Positions 2,581-10,240 of a stretch of 10,240 nt of DNA are shown piece by piece. The position numbers and the translations under genes were made by a program. The notes under the pieces are model-generated. The model was not told the DNA's origin and made no database searches. It worked only from the letters and a program-made list of their open reading frames with translations. How positions within the stretch are numbered: the stretch's first letter is position 1; every line of letters starts with the position of its first letter. The stretch comes from Thermoplasmata archaeon (GTDB lineage: Archaea; Thermoplasmatota; Thermoplasmata; SG8-5; JAGLSY01): assembly GCA_023137005.1 (NCBI GenBank), contig JAGLQE010000350.1:1-10240 (forward strand), in the 5' to 3' direction.

Positions 2581-5500
2581 ATGACAAAAATGGATAAGAT
2601 AATGACGATCGCATGCATTGTGATCCTTCTCATGGGAACGGTCATGTTCGCTGTTCAGAAGCAGAATGAGACCGAAGGTGATGATATATTGGTGGTCGAA
2701 GAGCCAGGAGATATGATATCCGCCACTAATGCATATGTGACCTCTGGGAAGTCAACCCTGATAACTGCTGAAGCTCTATATGCTAACTTAAATGATGGAT
2801 ATGCAGGAAATGACCCGTACATCCTCAGTGTTAGAAGTGCCGAGGCCTATGAGGCAGGACATATACCCGGGGCCGTGAACATCGCATGGAGGAGTGTCTT
2901 CACACCAGAGAACATCTCCAAACTGCCCAACAATAAGCAGATCGTGGTATATTGTTTCACTGGCCACACAGCCAGCCAGACAACCGCCATGCTCAATACC
3001 CTGGGCTATGACGCGGTCTGCCTCAAGTGGGGAATGTGCTCATGGACATCTGATACCGTCGTCGCTCCAGGTTACTATGACAGGTCAACAATAGGCGAGT
3101 TGCCATATGTCACAGGAGCAGAGCCAGGCACATGGACCACCATCGGAACAAGATCCGATGATACAGGAACAAGGCAATGTGGTGGGGACGATGAGCCAGC
3201 ACCCACACCAGTAGACACAGGCGATGTGGCTGAAGGAGACTTCAATGGAATTGCTAATGTTTACATGGCAGAGGGAAAGCCAGCAGCCATATCGGCTTCC
3301 TCTCTATACGATAATCTCAATGACGGCAATGTGGACAATGACCCGTTCATACTCAGCATCAGGTCAGCCACACAGTTCGCGACAGGCCACATACCTGGAG
3401 CCATCAATATCGGCTTCAAGAGCCTCTTCACCGAGGAGAACCTGACAAAGCTACCGGATGATGACCGCCAGATAGTCGTGGTCTGCTATACCGGACACAC
3501 AGCCAGCCAGGCAGCCTCCCTTCTGAACATGAATGGCTTCAATGCCACAGTTCTCAAGTGGGGAATGACCGGATGGCACTCTGACCCGACCATAGCACCT
3601 TCGTACTACAACAGGGCGACAGCATGCATGAACTTCCCTGTGGTCAATGGTACAGAATGTGGAACATTGGATGATGGGTTCATCGCAGACTCTGCGAGGG
3701 TTGTATTGACGGCAACAAGAGAATATCTAGCTGCTGGAAAGAGCACGATGATAACCGCCGCAGCTCTCCACGCCAACCTGGATGACGGATACACGGCCAA
3801 TGACCCTTTCATACTCAGCGTGAGAAGTGCAACAGCCTATGAGGCCGGACACATACCCGGTGCAGTGAACATCGCCTGGACCGAGGGCTTCACAGAAGAT
3901 AATCTGGCTCTCTTGCCAACAGACCGCGACATAGTGGTCTACTGCTTCACAGGACACACGGCCAGTCAGACAACCGCCATGCTCAATGTTCTGGGCTATG
4001 ATGCATTTTGCCTCAAGTGGGGAATGTGCTCGTGGACGACCAATTCCACTGTCGCCCCAGGGTCCTTCATTGATCCTGCAGAGTCCTACCCAACGGTACC
4101 CGGCTCCGAGCCAGGAACATGGACCCGCTCTGGAACAAGACAGGATTGTGGAGATGCTACAGGAACAGGAGAGACCGAGGCGATAACCGGCTCTGTCTAT
4201 GACATAACCAGAACTGTTTGCAACAATTACCTGGCAGAGGGAAAGCCCGCCGCAGTATCGGCCGCATCTCTCTACGAGAACCTGAATGACGGCGATGCGA
4301 CCAATGATCCTTTTGTTCTGACAGTGCGCTCGGCCACCCAGTACGCTATTGGCCACATACCAGGAGCCATAAACATCGGCCTCAGTGGTATGTTCACTGA
4401 TGAGAACCTGACAAAGCTACCGGAGAACAAGACAAGGCAGATCGTTGTAGTATGCTATACCGGACACACAGCGAGCCAGGCAACAGCTCTTCTGAACATC
4501 AATGGTTACAATGCCACTGCACTCAAGTGGGGAATGACCGGATGGACAGCCAATACCACCATCGCTCCGTCAAGATATGTCAGAGGAACAGCCGCCAGTA
4601 ACTTCGAGGTTGTTATCGGGACAAGCGCCGGCACCATCGCCGATGGTATCATCGCGGGAAAGACCGATGCAGAGATCATCAAGGACGCATCCAGAGCCTA
4701 TCTGGAGAACGGAATGAAGTTCATAACCGCACCAACACTGAGAGGCTTGTTGAACGACACCGATGACACGAACGATCCATTTGTTCTCAGCATCAGGAGT
4801 TCCACGCATTATGCATTGGGCCACATACCCGGAGCAATAAACATGCCGTGGAGGAGTCTTTTCTCCATCGAGAACCTGACCCAGCTACCGGATGATGAGA
4901 CACAGATAGTTGTCGTGTGCTATACAGGACAGACAGCCAGCCAGGTAACCGCCCTGCTCAATGTGCTCGGCTACAATGCCAGCACCCTGAAGCACGGTAT
5001 GAGTGCCTGGACCGTCAATACGACCATCGCGCCATATGGTTTCAACAATACAACACAGCAGGCAGCATACCCGACAGTTAGCGGGGTTGATGCTGGAGTA
5101 ATGGCTGATGCCATAACTCGTGGTTGTGATGACGATATCGGTGTGATCGGCTTGACCTTCGAAGGCAGTTCCGACGAGTGGGAGATCATCAGACAGGCTT
5201 GTGAACTATACGCCGCAACCGCCACCTTCACGGTGACCAATAAGGCATTGTTCAATAACCTGGATGACAACTACACGGCCAATGATCCCTTCATCCTGAG
5301 CATCAGGAGCTCGGAGCATTATGCACTGGGACATGTACCAACAGCCACCAATTTGGCCGCGGGAACCATCTTCGATGATGCGAACCTGGCCACATTACCG
5401 GCTGACAAGCAGATCGTGGTGTACTGTTACACTGGACAGGGAGCAGGACATTTATCGGCTCTTCTGAACATAAACGGTTACAATGCTATCTCGCTGAAGT

Positions 5501-5637
5501 ACGGTATGTGCTCGTGGACCAATAGCACTGATGTGGGTAACTCATGTTACACCCCGGATCTAGCTGGCTTCGACTTCGAGGTCGTGCTGGACTCCACCGA
5601 GCCAGGTGTTTGGGCAGACGGTGAGCTTGTAGGTTAG
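2581..5637 (+). CDS. Membrane-anchored, secreted protein with six tandem rhodanese domains
   Basis: A 1018-residue protein starting at ATG 2581, 5 nt after a strong AGGAGGTGA ribosome site (2567-2575); an in-frame ATG at 2521 lies inside the transporter gene and has no such site. Residues 7-25 form a hydrophobic segment (signal anchor or signal peptide) after a Lys/Asp-containing start; the rest is hydrophilic, so it probably acts outside the membrane. Six rhodanese domains lie near residues 52-165, 228-343, 382-494, 550-666, 707-820 and 877-983. Each has a GH(I/V)P-type substrate-loop approach and a CxTGxxAx active-site loop, with cysteines at 125, 302, 455, 625, 780 and 949. All six are intact. 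Rhodaneses carry sulfane sulfur as cysteine persulfide. Domains 1/3 and 2/4 are especially alike, implying duplication of a two-domain unit. Extra cysteines and over a dozen N-x-S/T sequons fit an exported, possibly glycosylated protein. It is the last gene of the operon, 16 nt after the transporter. Confidence 0.92.
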   Translation: MTKMDKIMTIACIVILLMGTVMFAVQKQNETEGDDILVVEEPGDMISATNAYVTSGKSTLITAEALYANLNDGYAGNDPYILSVRSAEAYEAGHIPGAVNIAWRSVFTPENISKLPNNKQIVVYCFTGHTASQTTAMLNTLGYDAVCLKWGMCSWTSDTVVAPGYYDRSTIGELPYVTGAEPGTWTTIGTRSDDTGTRQCGGDDEPAPTPVDTGDVAEGDFNGIANVYMAEGKPAAISASSLYDNLNDGNVDNDPFILSIRSATQFATGHIPGAINIGFKSLFTEENLTKLPDDDRQIVVVCYTGHTASQAASLLNMNGFNATVLKWGMTGWHSDPTIAPSYYNRATACMNFPVVNGTECGTLDDGFIADSARVVLTATREYLAAGKSTMITAAALHANLDDGYTANDPFILSVRSATAYEAGHIPGAVNIAWTEGFTEDNLALLPTDRDIVVYCFTGHTASQTTAMLNVLGYDAFCLKWGMCSWTTNSTVAPGSFIDPAESYPTVPGSEPGTWTRSGTRQDCGDATGTGETEAITGSVYDITRTVCNNYLAEGKPAAVSAASLYENLNDGDATNDPFVLTVRSATQYAIGHIPGAINIGLSGMFTDENLTKLPENKTRQIVVVCYTGHTASQATALLNINGYNATALKWGMTGWTANTTIAPSRYVRGTAASNFEVVIGTSAGTIADGIIAGKTDAEIIKDASRAYLENGMKFITAPTLRGLLNDTDDTNDPFVLSIRSSTHYALGHIPGAINMPWRSLFSIENLTQLPDDETQIVVVCYTGQTASQVTALLNVLGYNASTLKHGMSAWTVNTTIAPYGFNNTTQQAAYPTVSGVDAGVMADAITRGCDDDIGVIGLTFEGSSDEWEIIRQACELYAATATFTVTNKALFNNLDDNYTANDPFILSIRSSEHYALGHVPTATNLAAGTIFDDANLATLPADKQIVVYCYTGQGAGHLSALLNINGYNAISLKYGMCSWTNSTDVGNSCYTPDLAGFDFEVVLDSTEPGVWADGELVG
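2734..5529 (+). repeat. Six-fold degenerate coding repeat (rhodanese units, period about 153-177 codons)
   Basis: Active-site Cys codons fall at 2953, 3484, 3943, 4453, 4918 and 5425, giving spacings of 177, 153, 170, 155 and 169 codons, an alternating long-short pattern. Repeat starts are near 2734, 3262, 3724, 4228, 4699 and 5209. Nucleotide identity is locally high between repeats 1 and 3 (for example CTCAAGTGGGGAATGTGCTC at both, about 990 bp apart) and between 2 and 4 (AAGTGGGGAATGACCGGATG at both, 969 bp apart). Repeats 5 and 6 are more divergent. Each unit also ends with a related linker of the form Y/F-x-V-V-x-G ... G-T/V. Confidence 0.85.
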
Positions 5638-5782: not shown

Positions 5783-8032
5783 TTATTTTTTACCAGTGGC
5801 ACCCACGATCGCGCACTGCCCAACAGAAATGCCTCCATCCCCACATGGCACTTTATCATGCCTTATCAGCTCGAAACCATGATCATTCAATTCTTTCATG
5901 AACATCTCCACTATCGGGATATTATAGGCCACCCCACCACTCAGGCCGATATTCTTGACATTGTTGGACCTGGCGGTTTCTATTGCGACCTCGCAAAGGG
6001 CCTTGACCAGACCACTGACATAGGCACTGGCCAGTTTTTGTTTCTCTTTATCTGATGGAAGCTCCGGGATCATATCCAGTAGTTCGCCGAAGGGCGTGAT
6101 GTGGTCGATAATGCCGCTTTTAATATTAAATGTATCTATTAAATTATATTTATTATCAATTATATTTAAATCAGAATTAATATACCTCTCTAATTTCATG
6201 GCTGGCTCACCATCATAGGAACGTGTATCGCATATTTCCAGAGCACAGGAGACCGCATCCAGCACCCGGCCCATGCTGGTTGTTTTGGGAGCCGTGGCCA
6301 TCATCTTATCGAATATCTTTTCCTCATCGGGAAGGATAGGATACTCTCTATTGGAGAGCCGGGCCATTGCATAGGCAAGTCTTTTGGGATCCTTGACCGC
6401 GGCTTCACCACCCAATAGCGGGAACTCGGCAAGATGCCCTGTCCTTTCATATTTCTCGAGGGAGGCTAGGAGAACCTCGCCACCCCAGGCATTTCCATCC
6501 GCACCATAGCCAGTGCCGTCAAGCGTGAGGACCATGGCCTCGTCAATGCCGGCATCCACCAGGAGGCTTGCTGCATGAGCCCAATGATGCTGGATCTCCA
6601 TTGTTTCACAGTTGAATTCATCAGCTAACTTTCGTGCCAGCTTGCGATTGCCATAACCAGGATGCATATCGATGCCGATACCGTCCACGGTTTCCATTCC
6701 TCGCAGGGCCAGCATGTGGTGGGTCGCGCTCTCCAGGTAGTCCATGACCCCATATTTACTGGATTTGCCAATGTACTGGCTTGGATAGATGAACCCTCCA
6801 GAGCCAATCGAGGAAGTAAGATTCTCATGGGCTCCCAGACCAATGAAATTACCTGTATTGGCAATGGGCAAAGGCACCGGGACAAAACCCCGGCTTCGTC
6901 TGATAAAGTAATTATGGCCAGCATGGTGAACTATCAGGGAATCGTCGCACCGATTGGCAATCCTGCGGTTGTGGAGTAAATAACCTCCAATGCCAGGACT
7001 CTTGTCTGAGCCAGTTTCACCCAGCTTGAGTATCCGATCCTCAGTGATAGCCATGGGCTCTCCCTGAGGATTGGCCGAGGTCATGATGACTGCTCCAATA
7101 TTTTTATCAAGATATTTAAATAATAAATGATGCACTGCTGAATAAGGAAGCATCACACCCACATTCCCCAGGCCAGGAGATACGATGTCCAGTTCCGGCC
7201 GGTCCCGCTTCTTCACAAGCACGATAGGACGCTCGCGCGAGGCCAATAGAGCCAGTTCTTCCTCATTGGCCTTCGTGTATCTGCCCACGGCCTTTTCGTC
7301 CCGGAACATCAGGGCAAAGGGCTTCTGCTCCCTGCCATACCATTCTCTGAGACTACTGCCAGCCTCTAATGAACAAATAATATGAGAGCCACCCCAGCCA
7401 TTCATGATGCCGAATTTTCCATCTTCAATGAGCTTGGCGAATCCCTCGATACCCTCCTTGGTTGGTTTGCCTTTCCCATCATACAAAGTGTACTGTGGCC
7501 CACATTCCGGGCATGATATGGTCTGCGCATGGAACCGCCTGTCACCCATCTTCTCGTATTCATCCAGGCATGACTGGCATAGGGGGAAATCCCCCATTGC
7601 AGTTAGGGGCCTATCATAAGGTAGATCCTCGATTATGGAAAATCTCGCACCGCAGTCCGTACAGTTGGTGAATGGATATTTCTCTCTCCTGTTACCGGGC
7701 TCCATCAACTCGTCCAAACATGGCTGGCAGATGGATGTGTCTGGCGGAATGGGAGAACTGCGGCTGCCCCTTTGACTGGGCAGAATAACAAAGCCATCAT
7801 TCTCCGGCTGCCCCTCACCTACCTCGATATTATCTATCCTCGCGAGGGGCGGTAGGATCGCCTTCAGATCTTCAATAAAAATATTTGCTTCATACCGACC
7901 ACCAGATAAGATGACCTCCACATTGGAGCCATTGTTTCGGACATGGCCAGATAGATCCATCTTGACAGCGAGCTTTACGACTGCTGGCCTAAAACCTACG
8001 CCTTGAACTACACCGTGGACCTGGAGTTTCAT
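5783..8032 (-). CDS. hypF: Carbamoyltransferase HypF, [NiFe]-hydrogenase maturation
   Basis: A complete 749-residue HypF. It uses carbamoyl phosphate and ATP to make carbamoyl-adenylate and transfers the carbamoyl group to the C-terminal cysteine of HypE, the source of the cyanide ligands of the hydrogenase iron. The order is canonical: acylphosphatase domain (residues 1-90, VHGVVQGVGFRP); two zinc fingers, each CX2CX18CX2C (Cys102/105/124/127 and 152/155/174/177); a YrdC-like domain (about 195-385, ending RRSRGFVPVP); and a Kae1-like domain (about 395-749) with metal-binding HHWAHA (482-487), LSGGVAYN and GDGGISVGQ. No ribosome site precedes the ATG, but a TATA-like box lies about 27 nt upstream, suggesting a leaderless mRNA. 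No hydrogenase or other hyp gene is visible, so its targets must be encoded elsewhere. A very AT-rich stretch encodes residues about 614-640. Confidence 0.97.
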   Translation of the reverse strand: MKLQVHGVVQGVGFRPAVVKLAVKMDLSGHVRNNGSNVEVILSGGRYEANIFIEDLKAILPPLARIDNIEVGEGQPENDGFVILPSQRGSRSSPIPPDTSICQPCLDELMEPGNRREKYPFTNCTDCGARFSIIEDLPYDRPLTAMGDFPLCQSCLDEYEKMGDRRFHAQTISCPECGPQYTLYDGKGKPTKEGIEGFAKLIEDGKFGIMNGWGGSHIICSLEAGSSLREWYGREQKPFALMFRDEKAVGRYTKANEEELALLASRERPIVLVKKRDRPELDIVSPGLGNVGVMLPYSAVHHLLFKYLDKNIGAVIMTSANPQGEPMAITEDRILKLGETGSDKSPGIGGYLLHNRRIANRCDDSLIVHHAGHNYFIRRSRGFVPVPLPIANTGNFIGLGAHENLTSSIGSGGFIYPSQYIGKSSKYGVMDYLESATHHMLALRGMETVDGIGIDMHPGYGNRKLARKLADEFNCETMEIQHHWAHAASLLVDAGIDEAMVLTLDGTGYGADGNAWGGEVLLASLEKYERTGHLAEFPLLGGEAAVKDPKRLAYAMARLSNREYPILPDEEKIFDKMMATAPKTTSMGRVLDAVSCALEICDTRSYDGEPAMKLERYINSDLNIIDNKYNLIDTFNIKSGIIDHITPFGELLDMIPELPSDKEKQKLASAYVSGLVKALCEVAIETARSNNVKNIGLSGGVAYNIPIVEMFMKELNDHGFELIRHDKVPCGDGGISVGQCAIVGATGKK

Positions 8033-8054
8033 TGATGTTCAGATATGTAATGAG

Positions 8055-8063
8055 GTATAGAAT
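8055..8063 (-). promoter_or_regulatory. Putative TATA box for hypF
   Basis: On the minus strand this reads AATTCTATA-like sequence centred near 8059, about 27 nt before the hypF ATG, the distance expected for a leaderless transcript. The hairpin at 8068-8091 lies directly upstream of it. Motif and spacing only. Confidence 0.4.
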
Positions 8064-8067
8064 TGTT

Positions 8068-8091
8068 ACGGAAGGTTAATGGACCTTCCGT
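8068..8091. terminator. 9-bp hairpin between the regulator gene and hypF: terminator or operator
   Basis: ACGGAAGGT (8068-8076) pairs perfectly with ACCTTCCGT (8083-8091) around a 6-nt loop. On the minus strand it begins 11 nt after the regulator's stop codon. No clear T-tract follows it, which weakens a terminator reading. It abuts the putative hypF TATA box, so it could equally be a protein-binding site controlling hypF. Confidence 0.5.
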
Positions 8092-8101
8092 CGGGTTGAC
8101 A

Positions 8102-8674
8102 TCAGTCATATGCCCTGATGAATTCCTTTATCTTCTTCTTGAGCTCGGGGTCCCTCTCCATCTCCAGCATCATGATGGCTGTCTGAAGTTTCCAGACCAT
8201 GTAGAAGCTCATATTGGAATCGGGCTTCAGGTCCTTCATCTTTTCTGAAACGACCTTCTCGATCTCCAGGAAAACGGCTTTCGCATGCTCGGCATGATCC
8301 CCATCCCCCTCGTATCCGATCTGCTCAAGGAGGGTGGCGATGGTCCCGCTGGTATTCTCCCATATCTTCAGCAACTCGTCCTTTTCCGGAACCGCATCCG
8401 CACCTGGCGCGAGAAAGAATAGCTTGGCGGTCCTGCCGTACATCTTCTTCGGAATATGGTGGATCTTCTTCTCCCCGGTCTGCTCGATGATGCCCGCATT
8501 CAGAAGCTTTTCCACGTGCCGGTATATCGTGGATTGGTCCTTTTCCAGGATACTGGCCATCTGATCCACCGTGAGATCGTTCAAACGCAGAAGCTCCAAT
8601 ATGGCTCTTCGGGTCTCATCTATCAGGAGCTTGATGATCTTGGGATCGTCGATCACTCTAATCTCGTCTGCCAT
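8102..8674 (-). CDS. ArsR-like winged-helix transcriptional regulator
   Basis: A 190-residue cytoplasmic regulator. Residues about 10-65 form an ArsR-type helix-turn-helix: DETRRAILELLRLNDLT, then VDQMASILEKDQSTIYRHVE as the recognition region, then KLLNAGIIEQ. It continues into a wing (TGEKKIHHIPKKMYGRTAKL). The remaining ~100 residues are mostly helical, acidic then basic, and probably mediate dimerisation or ligand sensing; the ligand cannot be read from sequence. There are no cysteines, so classic ArsR/SmtB metal-thiolate or cysteine redox sensing is unlikely. The ATG has no ribosome site but a TATA-like AGTATAAG about 28 nt upstream, so it is probably leaderless. It is divergent from a MATE efflux pump and upstream of hypF on the same strand; the pump and its own gene are the most likely targets. 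Confidence 0.85.
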   Translation of the reverse strand: MADEIRVIDDPKIIKLLIDETRRAILELLRLNDLTVDQMASILEKDQSTIYRHVEKLLNAGIIEQTGEKKIHHIPKKMYGRTAKLFFLAPGADAVPEKDELLKIWENTSGTIATLLEQIGYEGDGDHAEHAKAVFLEIEKVVSEKMKDLKPDSNMSFYMVWKLQTAIMMLEMERDPELKKKIKEFIRAYD

Positions 8675-8766: not shown

Positions 8767-10110
8767 ATGCAAGTGTCCCGTATGAACTCACGATTGAGGC
8801 GCAAGATATACAGTTTCGCCTGGCCAATAATATTGACCAATCTATTCGCAACGATCATGATGACGGTCAATATGATCATGGTCGGTCAATTGGGTCCGGC
8901 CGCGGTTGCTGGTGTAGGCCTAGGCGGCCAGGTGGTCCAGATATCCTTCGCAGTCATGATGGCCGTGAGTGCGGGCACGATCGCCATCGTTGCCAGATAC
9001 ACGGGTGCGAAGAAACCGGACATGGCCAACCGCGCGCTCAAGCAATCCCTCCTTCTTGGGATAATACTCTCCATACCCATAACCGTCATCGGCTGGTTCT
9101 TCGGAAGCTATTTCCTCGGATTGTTCGGGGCAGAACCGGATGTTCTGGATTTCGGATCGATATATGTTAAAATAACTTTCCTGGGAACCACATTCCAATT
9201 CATCGAGTTCCTGTCTGCCGCCGCTCTCAGAGGCTCAGGGGACATGAAGACACCATTGGCCATTGGCATTCTGAACAATGCCGTGAATATATTCTTAGGT
9301 TATGTACTGATATTCGGCCACCTGGGATTCCCGGAGATGGGGGTCATGGGTGCGGCTATCGGCAATGTGGTATCCTTCATTATCGGAGGCGTGGTCTATA
9401 TTCTCCTGCTACTGCGCGGTAACCTGAGACTGAAATTGGTGCGCAACCATGTGATATTCGACGGCTCGATAATGCGACGTATAATGAAGATCGGAACACC
9501 AGCCGCTGCAGAACAGGTCCTCATACAGACTGGATTCCTGGTCTACACTTTCATAATCGTATATTTCGGAACAGAGGCCCTCGCCGCCCACCAGATAGGT
9601 ATGAGAATTCAGGGACTGGCCTTCATGCCGGGAATAGGGTTCTCCATGGCGGCCACAGCTCTTGTTGGTCAGTATCTTGGAGCCAGAAAACCGAAAACAG
9701 CCGAAAGGTCCGCTATTGAATCAGCCAAGCTTTCCGCATCGGTCATGACCGTCATCGGCATTGTCCTTTTCTTCCTGGCCGAACCAATGGCTAGACTATT
9801 CATAAGCGATCCAGACACCCTCGGTTATACAGTTCTGTGGATTCGCCTTTTGGCCTTGAGCATGCCCGCCATCGGACTGTTCTTCACACTTTCCGGCGGA
9901 CTTCGGGGAGCAGGGGACACACGCTGGCCCCTCTACGCATCCACCTTCGGAATATATGCCATACGCCTTCCGGTCGCAGCCTTCCTGGGATTCTACCTGG
10001 GTCTGGGGATCATGGGGGCATGGATAGCCTTCATTACAGAATATTATGTCAGATCAGTGATAATAATATGGAGATTTAGATCGGGCAAGTGGAAGACAAT
10101 GAAGGTTTGA
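8767..10110 (+). CDS. MATE-family multidrug/cation antiporter
   Basis: A 447-residue membrane protein of the MATE (NorM/DinF-type) family, which exports organic cations or drugs in exchange for Na+ or H+. It has the expected length and about twelve hydrophobic helices in two homologous halves. The first half opens with FAWPIILTNLFATIMMTVNM and MIMVGQLGPAAVAGVGLGGQ; each half contains the family's RG(S/A)GD motif followed by a proline-containing segment (ALRGSGDMKTPL near 153-164 and GLRGAGDTRWPLY near 378-390). TEALAAHQIGMRI (269-281) in the second half mirrors the GPAAVAGVGLG segment of the first. The start is chosen from TATA spacing; Met6 is an alternative. It diverges from an ArsR-like regulator, an arrangement common for efflux pumps and their local repressors, so regulation by that protein is likely. 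The substrate is unknown. Confidence 0.93.
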   Translation: MQVSRMNSRLRRKIYSFAWPIILTNLFATIMMTVNMIMVGQLGPAAVAGVGLGGQVVQISFAVMMAVSAGTIAIVARYTGAKKPDMANRALKQSLLLGIILSIPITVIGWFFGSYFLGLFGAEPDVLDFGSIYVKITFLGTTFQFIEFLSAAALRGSGDMKTPLAIGILNNAVNIFLGYVLIFGHLGFPEMGVMGAAIGNVVSFIIGGVVYILLLLRGNLRLKLVRNHVIFDGSIMRRIMKIGTPAAAEQVLIQTGFLVYTFIIVYFGTEALAAHQIGMRIQGLAFMPGIGFSMAATALVGQYLGARKPKTAERSAIESAKLSASVMTVIGIVLFFLAEPMARLFISDPDTLGYTVLWIRLLALSMPAIGLFFTLSGGLRGAGDTRWPLYASTFGIYAIRLPVAAFLGFYLGLGIMGAWIAFITEYYVRSVIIIWRFRSGKWKTMKV

Positions 10111-10143: not shown

Positions 10144-10240
10144 TCACATACCCCAGGCAGTCAATATCTGCTTCTTCACAGACTCCCACTTGGTCTTGTC
10201 AAAAATGGCCCTCTCAAGAACCAGGGTTATGAGCTTATTG
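10144..10240 (-). CDS. 3' end of an unidentified protein-coding gene (C-terminal fragment)
   Basis: An open minus-strand frame enters from beyond the window's end and stops at TGA 10144-10146. The 31 visible residues run NKLITLVLERAIFDK then TKWESVKKQILTAWGM, a plausible amphipathic helical C-terminus with coding-like codon use. The family is not recognised. It converges on the MATE gene, whose stop codon is 33 nt away; I see no hairpin terminator in that gap. The fragment is short, so a chance open frame is possible. Confidence 0.45.
   Translation of the reverse strand, partial: NKLITLVLERAIFDKTKWESVKKQILTAWGM

Follow-up and report, generated by a model that had tools for sequence, protein, structure and literature searches.

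What would an archaeon do with six rhodanese domains strung on one protein and encoded directly behind a putative sulfur transporter? The question is raised by a gene at positions 2581–5637 (+) of contig JAGLQE010000350.1 from a Thermoplasmata archaeon (GCA_023137005.1). The window analysed here is this entire contig of 10,240 bases (C280 of genome G000), which belongs to a genome assembly that is 79% complete. Comparisons of sequence and predicted structure favour, with modest confidence, an extracytoplasmic array that would accept sulfane sulfur and feed it into YedE-type import and, in the cytoplasm, into a reduction of the persulfide with NAD(P)H.

Six domains, six cysteines and a probable N-terminal anchor

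The open reading frame (ORF) encodes a protein of 1018 residues; GGAGGTGA stands ahead of the start, and the stop codon of the YedE gene lies 16 nt 5´ of the ATG. The original prediction, made from the sequence alone, had described six catalytically intact rhodanese domains and staked this on the predicted structure. PF00581 matches the protein six times, always above the curated cut-off of 22.2 bits, and the structural model does give six units with the rhodanese fold, joined by flexible linkers of low pLDDT. The gene coordinates and all six loop cysteines were also confirmed. From the N-terminus, and with the types taken from the tree described below, the domains are 1 (type A, 2764–3051, loop Cys125), 2 (type B, 3292–3582, Cys302), 3 (type A, 3757–4038, Cys455), 4 (type B, 4258–4551, Cys625), the penultimate 5 (type C, 4750–5013, Cys780) and the last, 6 (type D, 5260–5523, Cys949), all on the + strand. 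A further short rhodanese-like match at 10145–10168 is located past the stop codon of a MATE gene at 10110 and was taken as chance; no RNA genes were found in the window.

This composition is outside the definition of the tandem-domain thiosulfate and mercaptopyruvate sulfurtransferases. Those enzymes have two domains, of which the N-terminal one is inactive; they share the rhodanese fold and the CxxGxx loop with the array, in which there are six domains, all with the cysteine. Superposition of the whole model on two-domain enzymes gave an rmsd of at least 10 Å and was not informative. The top Foldseek match, a thiosulfate sulfurtransferase of Pseudomonas aeruginosa (PDB 1yt8, 525 residues), aligns to several domains of the model, but its whole-chain superposition is poor (rmsd 28–36 Å). 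It presumably has four rhodanese domains, and we know of no link between it and YedE.

The intact loop is common across the family. A homologue search scored 7996 candidates and found 171 proteins, of which the best 120 were used (n=121 with the query); it could reach homologues of about 560–1782 residues, so that three-domain forms were largely missed and those with five, seven or nine domains were not. The loop position is cysteine in 610/619 domains, and every domain has it in 116 of the 121 proteins. P0021 keeps it in 6/9 domains and P0053 in 1/4, P0028 and P0104 are each without one, and one domain of P0006 could not be judged. The losses of several cysteines in P0053 and P0021 show that the family at large does not need one in every domain. 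In the usual rhodanese DVR motif an Asp precedes V-R; this position is Ser in 498/619 domains and Asp in 110/619, and in the window protein it is Thr in domain 4 and Ser in the other five.

The original prediction also placed the domains outside the cell, on a membrane anchor. The window protein begins with the positively charged MTKMDK and has one predicted hydrophobic helix at residues 4–28, resembling an uncleaved signal anchor (2581–2664, +), followed by an acidic body with a net charge of −60 over 988 residues. No lipobox was seen at this N-terminus. By a crude rule, 54/121 N-termini in the family carry a lipobox-like signal, 54/121 are hydrophobic and 13/121 are neither, several of the latter looking N-terminally cut. 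Sequons in the body number 17, compared with a mean of 10.3 after shuffling, a weak sign; 2.3% of shuffles reach 17. The anchor-like N-terminus, the acidic body and the signals of the homologues make export and membrane anchoring probable, and display on the cell surface, as the prediction had it, no more than possible.

A two-domain repeat grammar

Domains in the 121 proteins were counted with a profile built from the six window domains. Four domains are the most common number (72 proteins), followed by 6 (21), 10 (11), 8 (6), 2 (6), 5 (3), 9 (1) and 11 (1), so that the count is even in 116/121. Two of the five odd counts come from a shorter copy of the window protein (P0016) and from a protein whose name marks it as partial (P0055).

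A tree of 118 domains over 112 columns, from 20 proteins chosen from the 121, has many weak inner forks and nonetheless orders the archaeal-type set of 11 proteins (P0001, P0003, P0005, P0014, P0015, P0018, P0020, P0022, P0031, P0036 and P0037). This label rests on the window protein, P0003 and P0018, which are tied to archaeal contigs; the other members carry no organism assignment, and P0034, a near relative of P0031 outside the tree, is labelled as a gammaproteobacterial metagenome-assembled genome (MAG). The domains of the set form group A (26 rows, support 99/96), group B (26 rows, with moderate support of 96/73), group C (10 rows, 100/89) and group D (10 rows, 99/96). The order (A-B)n-C-D, with n=1–4, fits 72/72 of these domains; P0014 consists of A-B four times and lacks C-D, its domains still alternating.

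Spacing between loop cysteines, measured in the window protein and 15 proteins chosen from the 121, follows the same alternation. The steps in the window protein are 177, 153, 170, 155 and 169 residues, and in the other 10 archaeal-type proteins the short step is 153–159 and the long one 161–191. The layout can be written as A ~ [B=A] ~ [B=C] ~ D, where "=" is a short ordered linker and "~" a long flexible one. Similar steps occur in P0051, named Chloroflexi (156/139/156/138/156), P0045 (160/145/159/145/160) and P0108, from a Clostridiales MAG (140/126/145), and are less clean in P0056 (167/134/148). In the tree, odd and even domains of P0051 and P0045 form separate groups of their own, and expansion by dyads therefore appears to have taken place at least twice; the domains of P0029, P0056 and P0058 do not sort into the A, B, C and D groups.

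These patterns suggest that the array lengthens by entire A-B units. An instance is provided by genus g5, where G011 has a six-domain array and G007 a four-domain one, a single dyad apart (loci L038 and L040 being taken as their contigs). The even-number rule and the alternating linkers in archaea, P0051 and P0108 together predict a functional two-domain module of definite geometry, and the paired variation suggests a sulfur-collecting arm of adjustable length. A bolder version, which we regard as tentative and on the doubtful side, is a copy-number-adjustable antenna in which rigid B=A modules on flexible hinges would relay persulfides from domain to domain and finally to YedE, with length (4, 6, 8 or 10) tuned by dyads.

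The YedE operon and a possible route for sulfur

The array gene is the last of a DsrE-TusA-YedE-rhodanese operon, in which a DsrE-family sulfur carrier (522–875, +; partial match to PF13686) and a TusA sulfur carrier (909–1139, +; PF01206) precede a YeeE/YedE-family membrane protein (1206–2564, +). The latter matches PF04143 with 155 bits against a cut-off of 27. The expectation of a sulfur transporter beside the array was thus borne out: YedE lies directly 5´ of the array in 6/6 archaeal loci with upstream sequence (the window and L038–L042), with gaps of 5–22 nt between the longest ORFs, while L043 and L045 have no upstream sequence. In one relative, P0053 (1174 aa), a single chain joins YedE to four rhodanese domains. 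Three TsuA-type cysteines, at residues 185, 294 and 365 of the window YedE, are invariant in the 6/6 array-neighbouring proteins; in an alignment with chain 6leo they correspond to TsuA Cys 293, 22 and 91, respectively.

Divergent from the operon, the first 44 residues of a CoA-disulfide-reductase (CoADR)-like gene occupy positions 1–134 (−). They are 95% identical to the counterpart in L038, the Methanomassiliicoccales MAG CSMAG_2432, which is also the closest named relative covering the whole array (74% identity in the best segment). In the same place, L038 encodes a protein of 742 residues with Pyr_redox, a C-terminal rhodanese and two TusA stretches, the last a tail that, to our knowledge, the NSR of Thermotoga maritima does not have. 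The best matches of this protein are CoADR-RHD, a persulfide reductase and a CoA-persulfide reductase of known structure. A 680-residue CoADR-rhodanese-TusA-TusA-like remainder closes contig C362 of the source genome and would form one gene with the 44-residue start. A CoADR-Rhd/NSR-type composition is accordingly seen whole in L038 and as two contig pieces in the source genome. Elsewhere, CoADR immediately follows the array (G022), comes after a contig-initial rhodanese fragment of one domain, taken as the array's end (G013), or lies on a separate contig (G007).

The array was found in 5/61 genomes, all five among the 10 with PF04143, and in 17 others the array protein gave weak matches and nothing stronger; neither array nor PF04143 occurs in G001, a 74% complete genome from the genus of the source. 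NiFe-hydrogenase large-subunit matches exceed the cut-off in 5/5 array genomes and mcrA is found in 0/5, so a link to methanogenesis was dropped for the source genome and its four array relatives. The source organism is apparently a hydrogenase-bearing, non-methanogenic archaeon of Thermoplasmatota type. A Dsr or Psr/Phs route was also rejected, as the source genome (the only one searched for it, at 79% completeness) has no NIR_SIR and no Molybdopterin-family match, which leaves the cytoplasmic NAD(P)H persulfide reductase as the one visible route for the reduction of sulfane sulfur.

These parts can be arranged into a route. While the six domains, six cysteines, anchor-like helix, operon, YedE neighbour and repeat grammar are computed, we infer the persulfide chemistry, the direction of transfer, the hand-over to YedE and the substrate. 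Outside the membrane, thiosulfate, polysulfide or dissolved S0 would donate sulfane sulfur to the loop cysteines, which would hold it as persulfide, and the array would pass it on to the importer of the YedE family whose gene immediately precedes its own. TusA and DsrE would carry the imported sulfur onward in the cytoplasm, where the CoADR-rhodanese-TusA-TusA flavoprotein would use NAD(P)H to reduce the persulfide, giving sulfide. The net process would be sulfur or thiosulfate reduction, as an electron sink and/or a sulfur supply.

Several components of such a route have been described. In T. maritima, S0 or thiosulfate induces nsr and yeeE, the latter 42.6-fold in the case of thiosulfate, and NSR catalyses a CoA-stimulated NAD(P)H reduction of S0, polysulfide and thiosulfate (PMC9431562). 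The kinds of parts in its NSR and yeeE/dsrE/tusA cluster match the window operon; in contrast to this operon, no rhodanese is mentioned in the text of that paper. The thiosulfate importer TsuA/YeeE-TsuB/YeeD (PDB 6leo, 8k1r; PMC11073785) shares with the window PF04143, the three aligned cysteines and a TusA-type partner gene. However, the halves of the window YedE are in opposite order, residues 278–384 resembling TsuA 6–110 and residues 132–212 resembling 239–320; it falls below the NCBIfam TsuA cut-offs (91 bits against 400 and 82 against 645), and a rhodanese array is added. It has been proposed that a periplasmic rhodanese in cable bacteria and Desulfurivibrio makes thiosulfate which enters via YeeE; this YeeE/YeeD/DsrEFH (YTD) system likewise includes an extracytoplasmic rhodanese, which the accessible part of the source does not describe as a multi-domain array (PMC13047784). 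ExtH, of the Geobacter extHIJKL cluster for extracellular electron transfer, is an exported rhodanese-family lipoprotein (PMC6148476), so extracytoplasmic rhodaneses are already in print, with YeeE in the case of the cable bacteria.

A description of a multi-rhodanese array, its grammar, its union with YedE or multi-site sulfur relay was not found in the open-licence PMC literature, covered mostly by title listing, and the same holds for close homologues already assigned this role. YeeE/TusA/DsrE systems as such are known, like extracytoplasmic rhodaneses. How sulfur is brought into the cytoplasm has been called poorly understood even in studied sulfur oxidisers (PMC11582611); an exported array, a YedE channel, TusA/DsrE and a nearby cytoplasmic persulfide reductase are proposed as a complete, testable route for it. 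The multivalent sulfur capture or relay first suggested for this protein is partly supported, by the intact domains, the probable export and the conserved transporter neighbour; relay, substrate and surface display stay at the level of proposals. The finding itself is real, and its biology is richer than first claimed, comprising a probably exported dyad-repeat array within a sulfur import operon.

A number of observations weigh against the import route. In P0053, fused to YedE, 3/4 loop cysteines are gone. TusA is upstream in 5/6 archaeal loci (the window, L038, L039, L040 and L042; not L041), and DsrE in 3/6 (the window, L038 and L040), lying downstream in L039. No CoADR was seen in about 2 kb upstream and 3 kb downstream of the L042 operon, and G004 has a CoADR of the same type (76% identical, with one internal stop) without an array or a PF04143 match. 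Confidence was slightly lowered because DsrE, TusA and CoADR are less constant than YedE, and because of the G004 case. The pTM of the whole-protein model, 0.52 over six domains, does not establish a fixed relay geometry. In Bacillota, including Fusibacter and Dethiosulfatibacter, YedE is 2.5–10.6 kb away from the array in 17/22 loci, and YedE was found in the flanks of 0/50 loci outside archaea and Bacillota (bacterial or unplaced). As many of these lie beside multihaem cytochromes, delivery to YedE is not a universal role of the family. Lastly, the window YedE misses both the TsuA and the YedE/FdhT cut-offs, so that it may carry thiosulfate, other sulfane sulfur or selenium.

Selenium defines one rival reading, in which selenite-derived or selenopersulfide species would be the ligands of the array and serve the synthesis of selenoproteins or selenouridine. 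Here, the best full-length NCBIfam match of YedE is the selenium metabolism family YedE/FdhT (NF033796, E 1.9e-47, collinear), and the rhodanese-containing Geobacter cluster has been linked to selenite and tellurite via ExtI (PMC6148476). The NF033796 score, however, is 162 bits against a cut-off of 350, the genes nearby encode a TusA carrier and a protein resembling persulfide reductases, and selD above the cut-off was found in 0/5 array genomes (72–89% complete; weaker matches occur in all five, as in control genomes), which makes this reading improbable. Somewhat less so, although still unlikely, is an extracellular redox role in place of import, with multihaem cytochromes or minerals as the partners in sulfane-sulfur exchange. 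A scan of genome contigs for the array yielded 79 retained loci from 243 encoding stretches; ORFs with at least three CxxCH make up 62/476 within 3 kb of the rhodanese gene and 5/461 beyond 5 kb (Fisher p 3e-14, treating ORFs as independent). Rhodanese and cytochrome domains also occur together in P0067, and the rhodanese lipoprotein ExtH belongs to an electron-conduit cluster (PMC6148476). The bacterial pattern is not repeated in archaea: ExtH sits in a porin/cytochrome cluster, whereas such CxxCH-rich ORFs were found in 0/7 archaeal loci (some sequences being short), and no window ORF has more than one CxxCH.

The array might otherwise soak up sulfane sulfur under sulfur stress or as storage, or detoxify cyanide, outside the cell and with no onward delivery. 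Multivalency and predicted export suit a buffer, and the paired operator-like repeat described below, whose recurrence in G000 is confined to the neighbourhood of NifX-like and Fe-S ATPase genes, would suit a sulfur or Fe-S stress regulon as well; the constant co-location with an importer exceeds what a buffer needs, and we give this option a low probability. Lowest of all is placed a structural or binding repeat protein whose cysteines were kept through ancestry or for disulfides and not for catalysis. The cysteine losses in P0053 and P0021 and the flexible linkers agree with it, but the near-complete retention of the loop cysteine across the family does not. The sulfane-sulfur import reading remains the one preferred for the archaeal loci.

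Intergenic repeats, bacterial relatives and flanking genes

Between the divergent genes, the inverted repeat TAACN3GTTA occurs three times in tandem (291–325; 0.07 expected) and is a candidate operator. Four copies (0.10 expected) occur in the same region of L038 (2971–2994 and 3427–3450). Paired copies elsewhere in G000 are limited to C196 (2778–2800), where two NifX-like genes and one for a ferredoxin-MinD-type ATPase follow and a Mrp/NUBPL-type ATPase gene ends on the opposite side; in G011 they occur solely at the CoADR/DsrE intergenic region. None were found in G013, G022 or G007, the contig of the last beginning inside DsrE. Read across repeat copies, GTTn3AAC appears twice at 298–318, out of four occurrences in the window (1.35 expected), and in L038 the spacer has four bases. 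GTTn3AAC is the short SurR site of Thermococcales (PMC12162507). A regulator in common is at most a lead. Two candidates were discarded: the ArsR-type regulator at 8102–8674 as a SurR-like redox switch, as the protein has no cysteine, and, as common regulator, the HTH gene that separates CoADR from DsrE in L038, as it has no Pfam match and only a 30% identical match elsewhere in G000.

Among the bacterial relatives, cytochrome-adjacent rhodanese loci are found in Chloroflexota, Actinomycetota, Planctomycetota and others. In L044, L047, L066, L069 and L115, from several bacterial phyla, two- or four-domain rhodanese genes lie within about 0.4 kb of ORFs with 9–10 CxxCH, and in P0067, P0072, P0109, P0119 and P0121 a single chain combines cytochrome c3/c7-type domains with either two or four domains of the rhodanese type. 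The cytochrome-linked relatives of these other phyla may point to an extracellular sulfur chemistry that has been little studied. Within Bacillota, Fusibacter species are described as producing sulfide from S0 or thiosulfate (PMC5525254), and in Fusibacter strain 3D3 sulfide production has been described as not tied to energy conservation (PMC9751042).

Beyond the array, the window carries HypF beside the gene for the cysteine-free ArsR-type regulator (5783–8674, −). Behind the array of L038, positions 9985–16526 hold Oxidored_q6 and an iron-only hydrogenase C-terminal domain in a single chain, a NuoF-like gene and the start of a NiFe-hydrogenase large subunit, which looks like an unusual hybrid hydrogenase.

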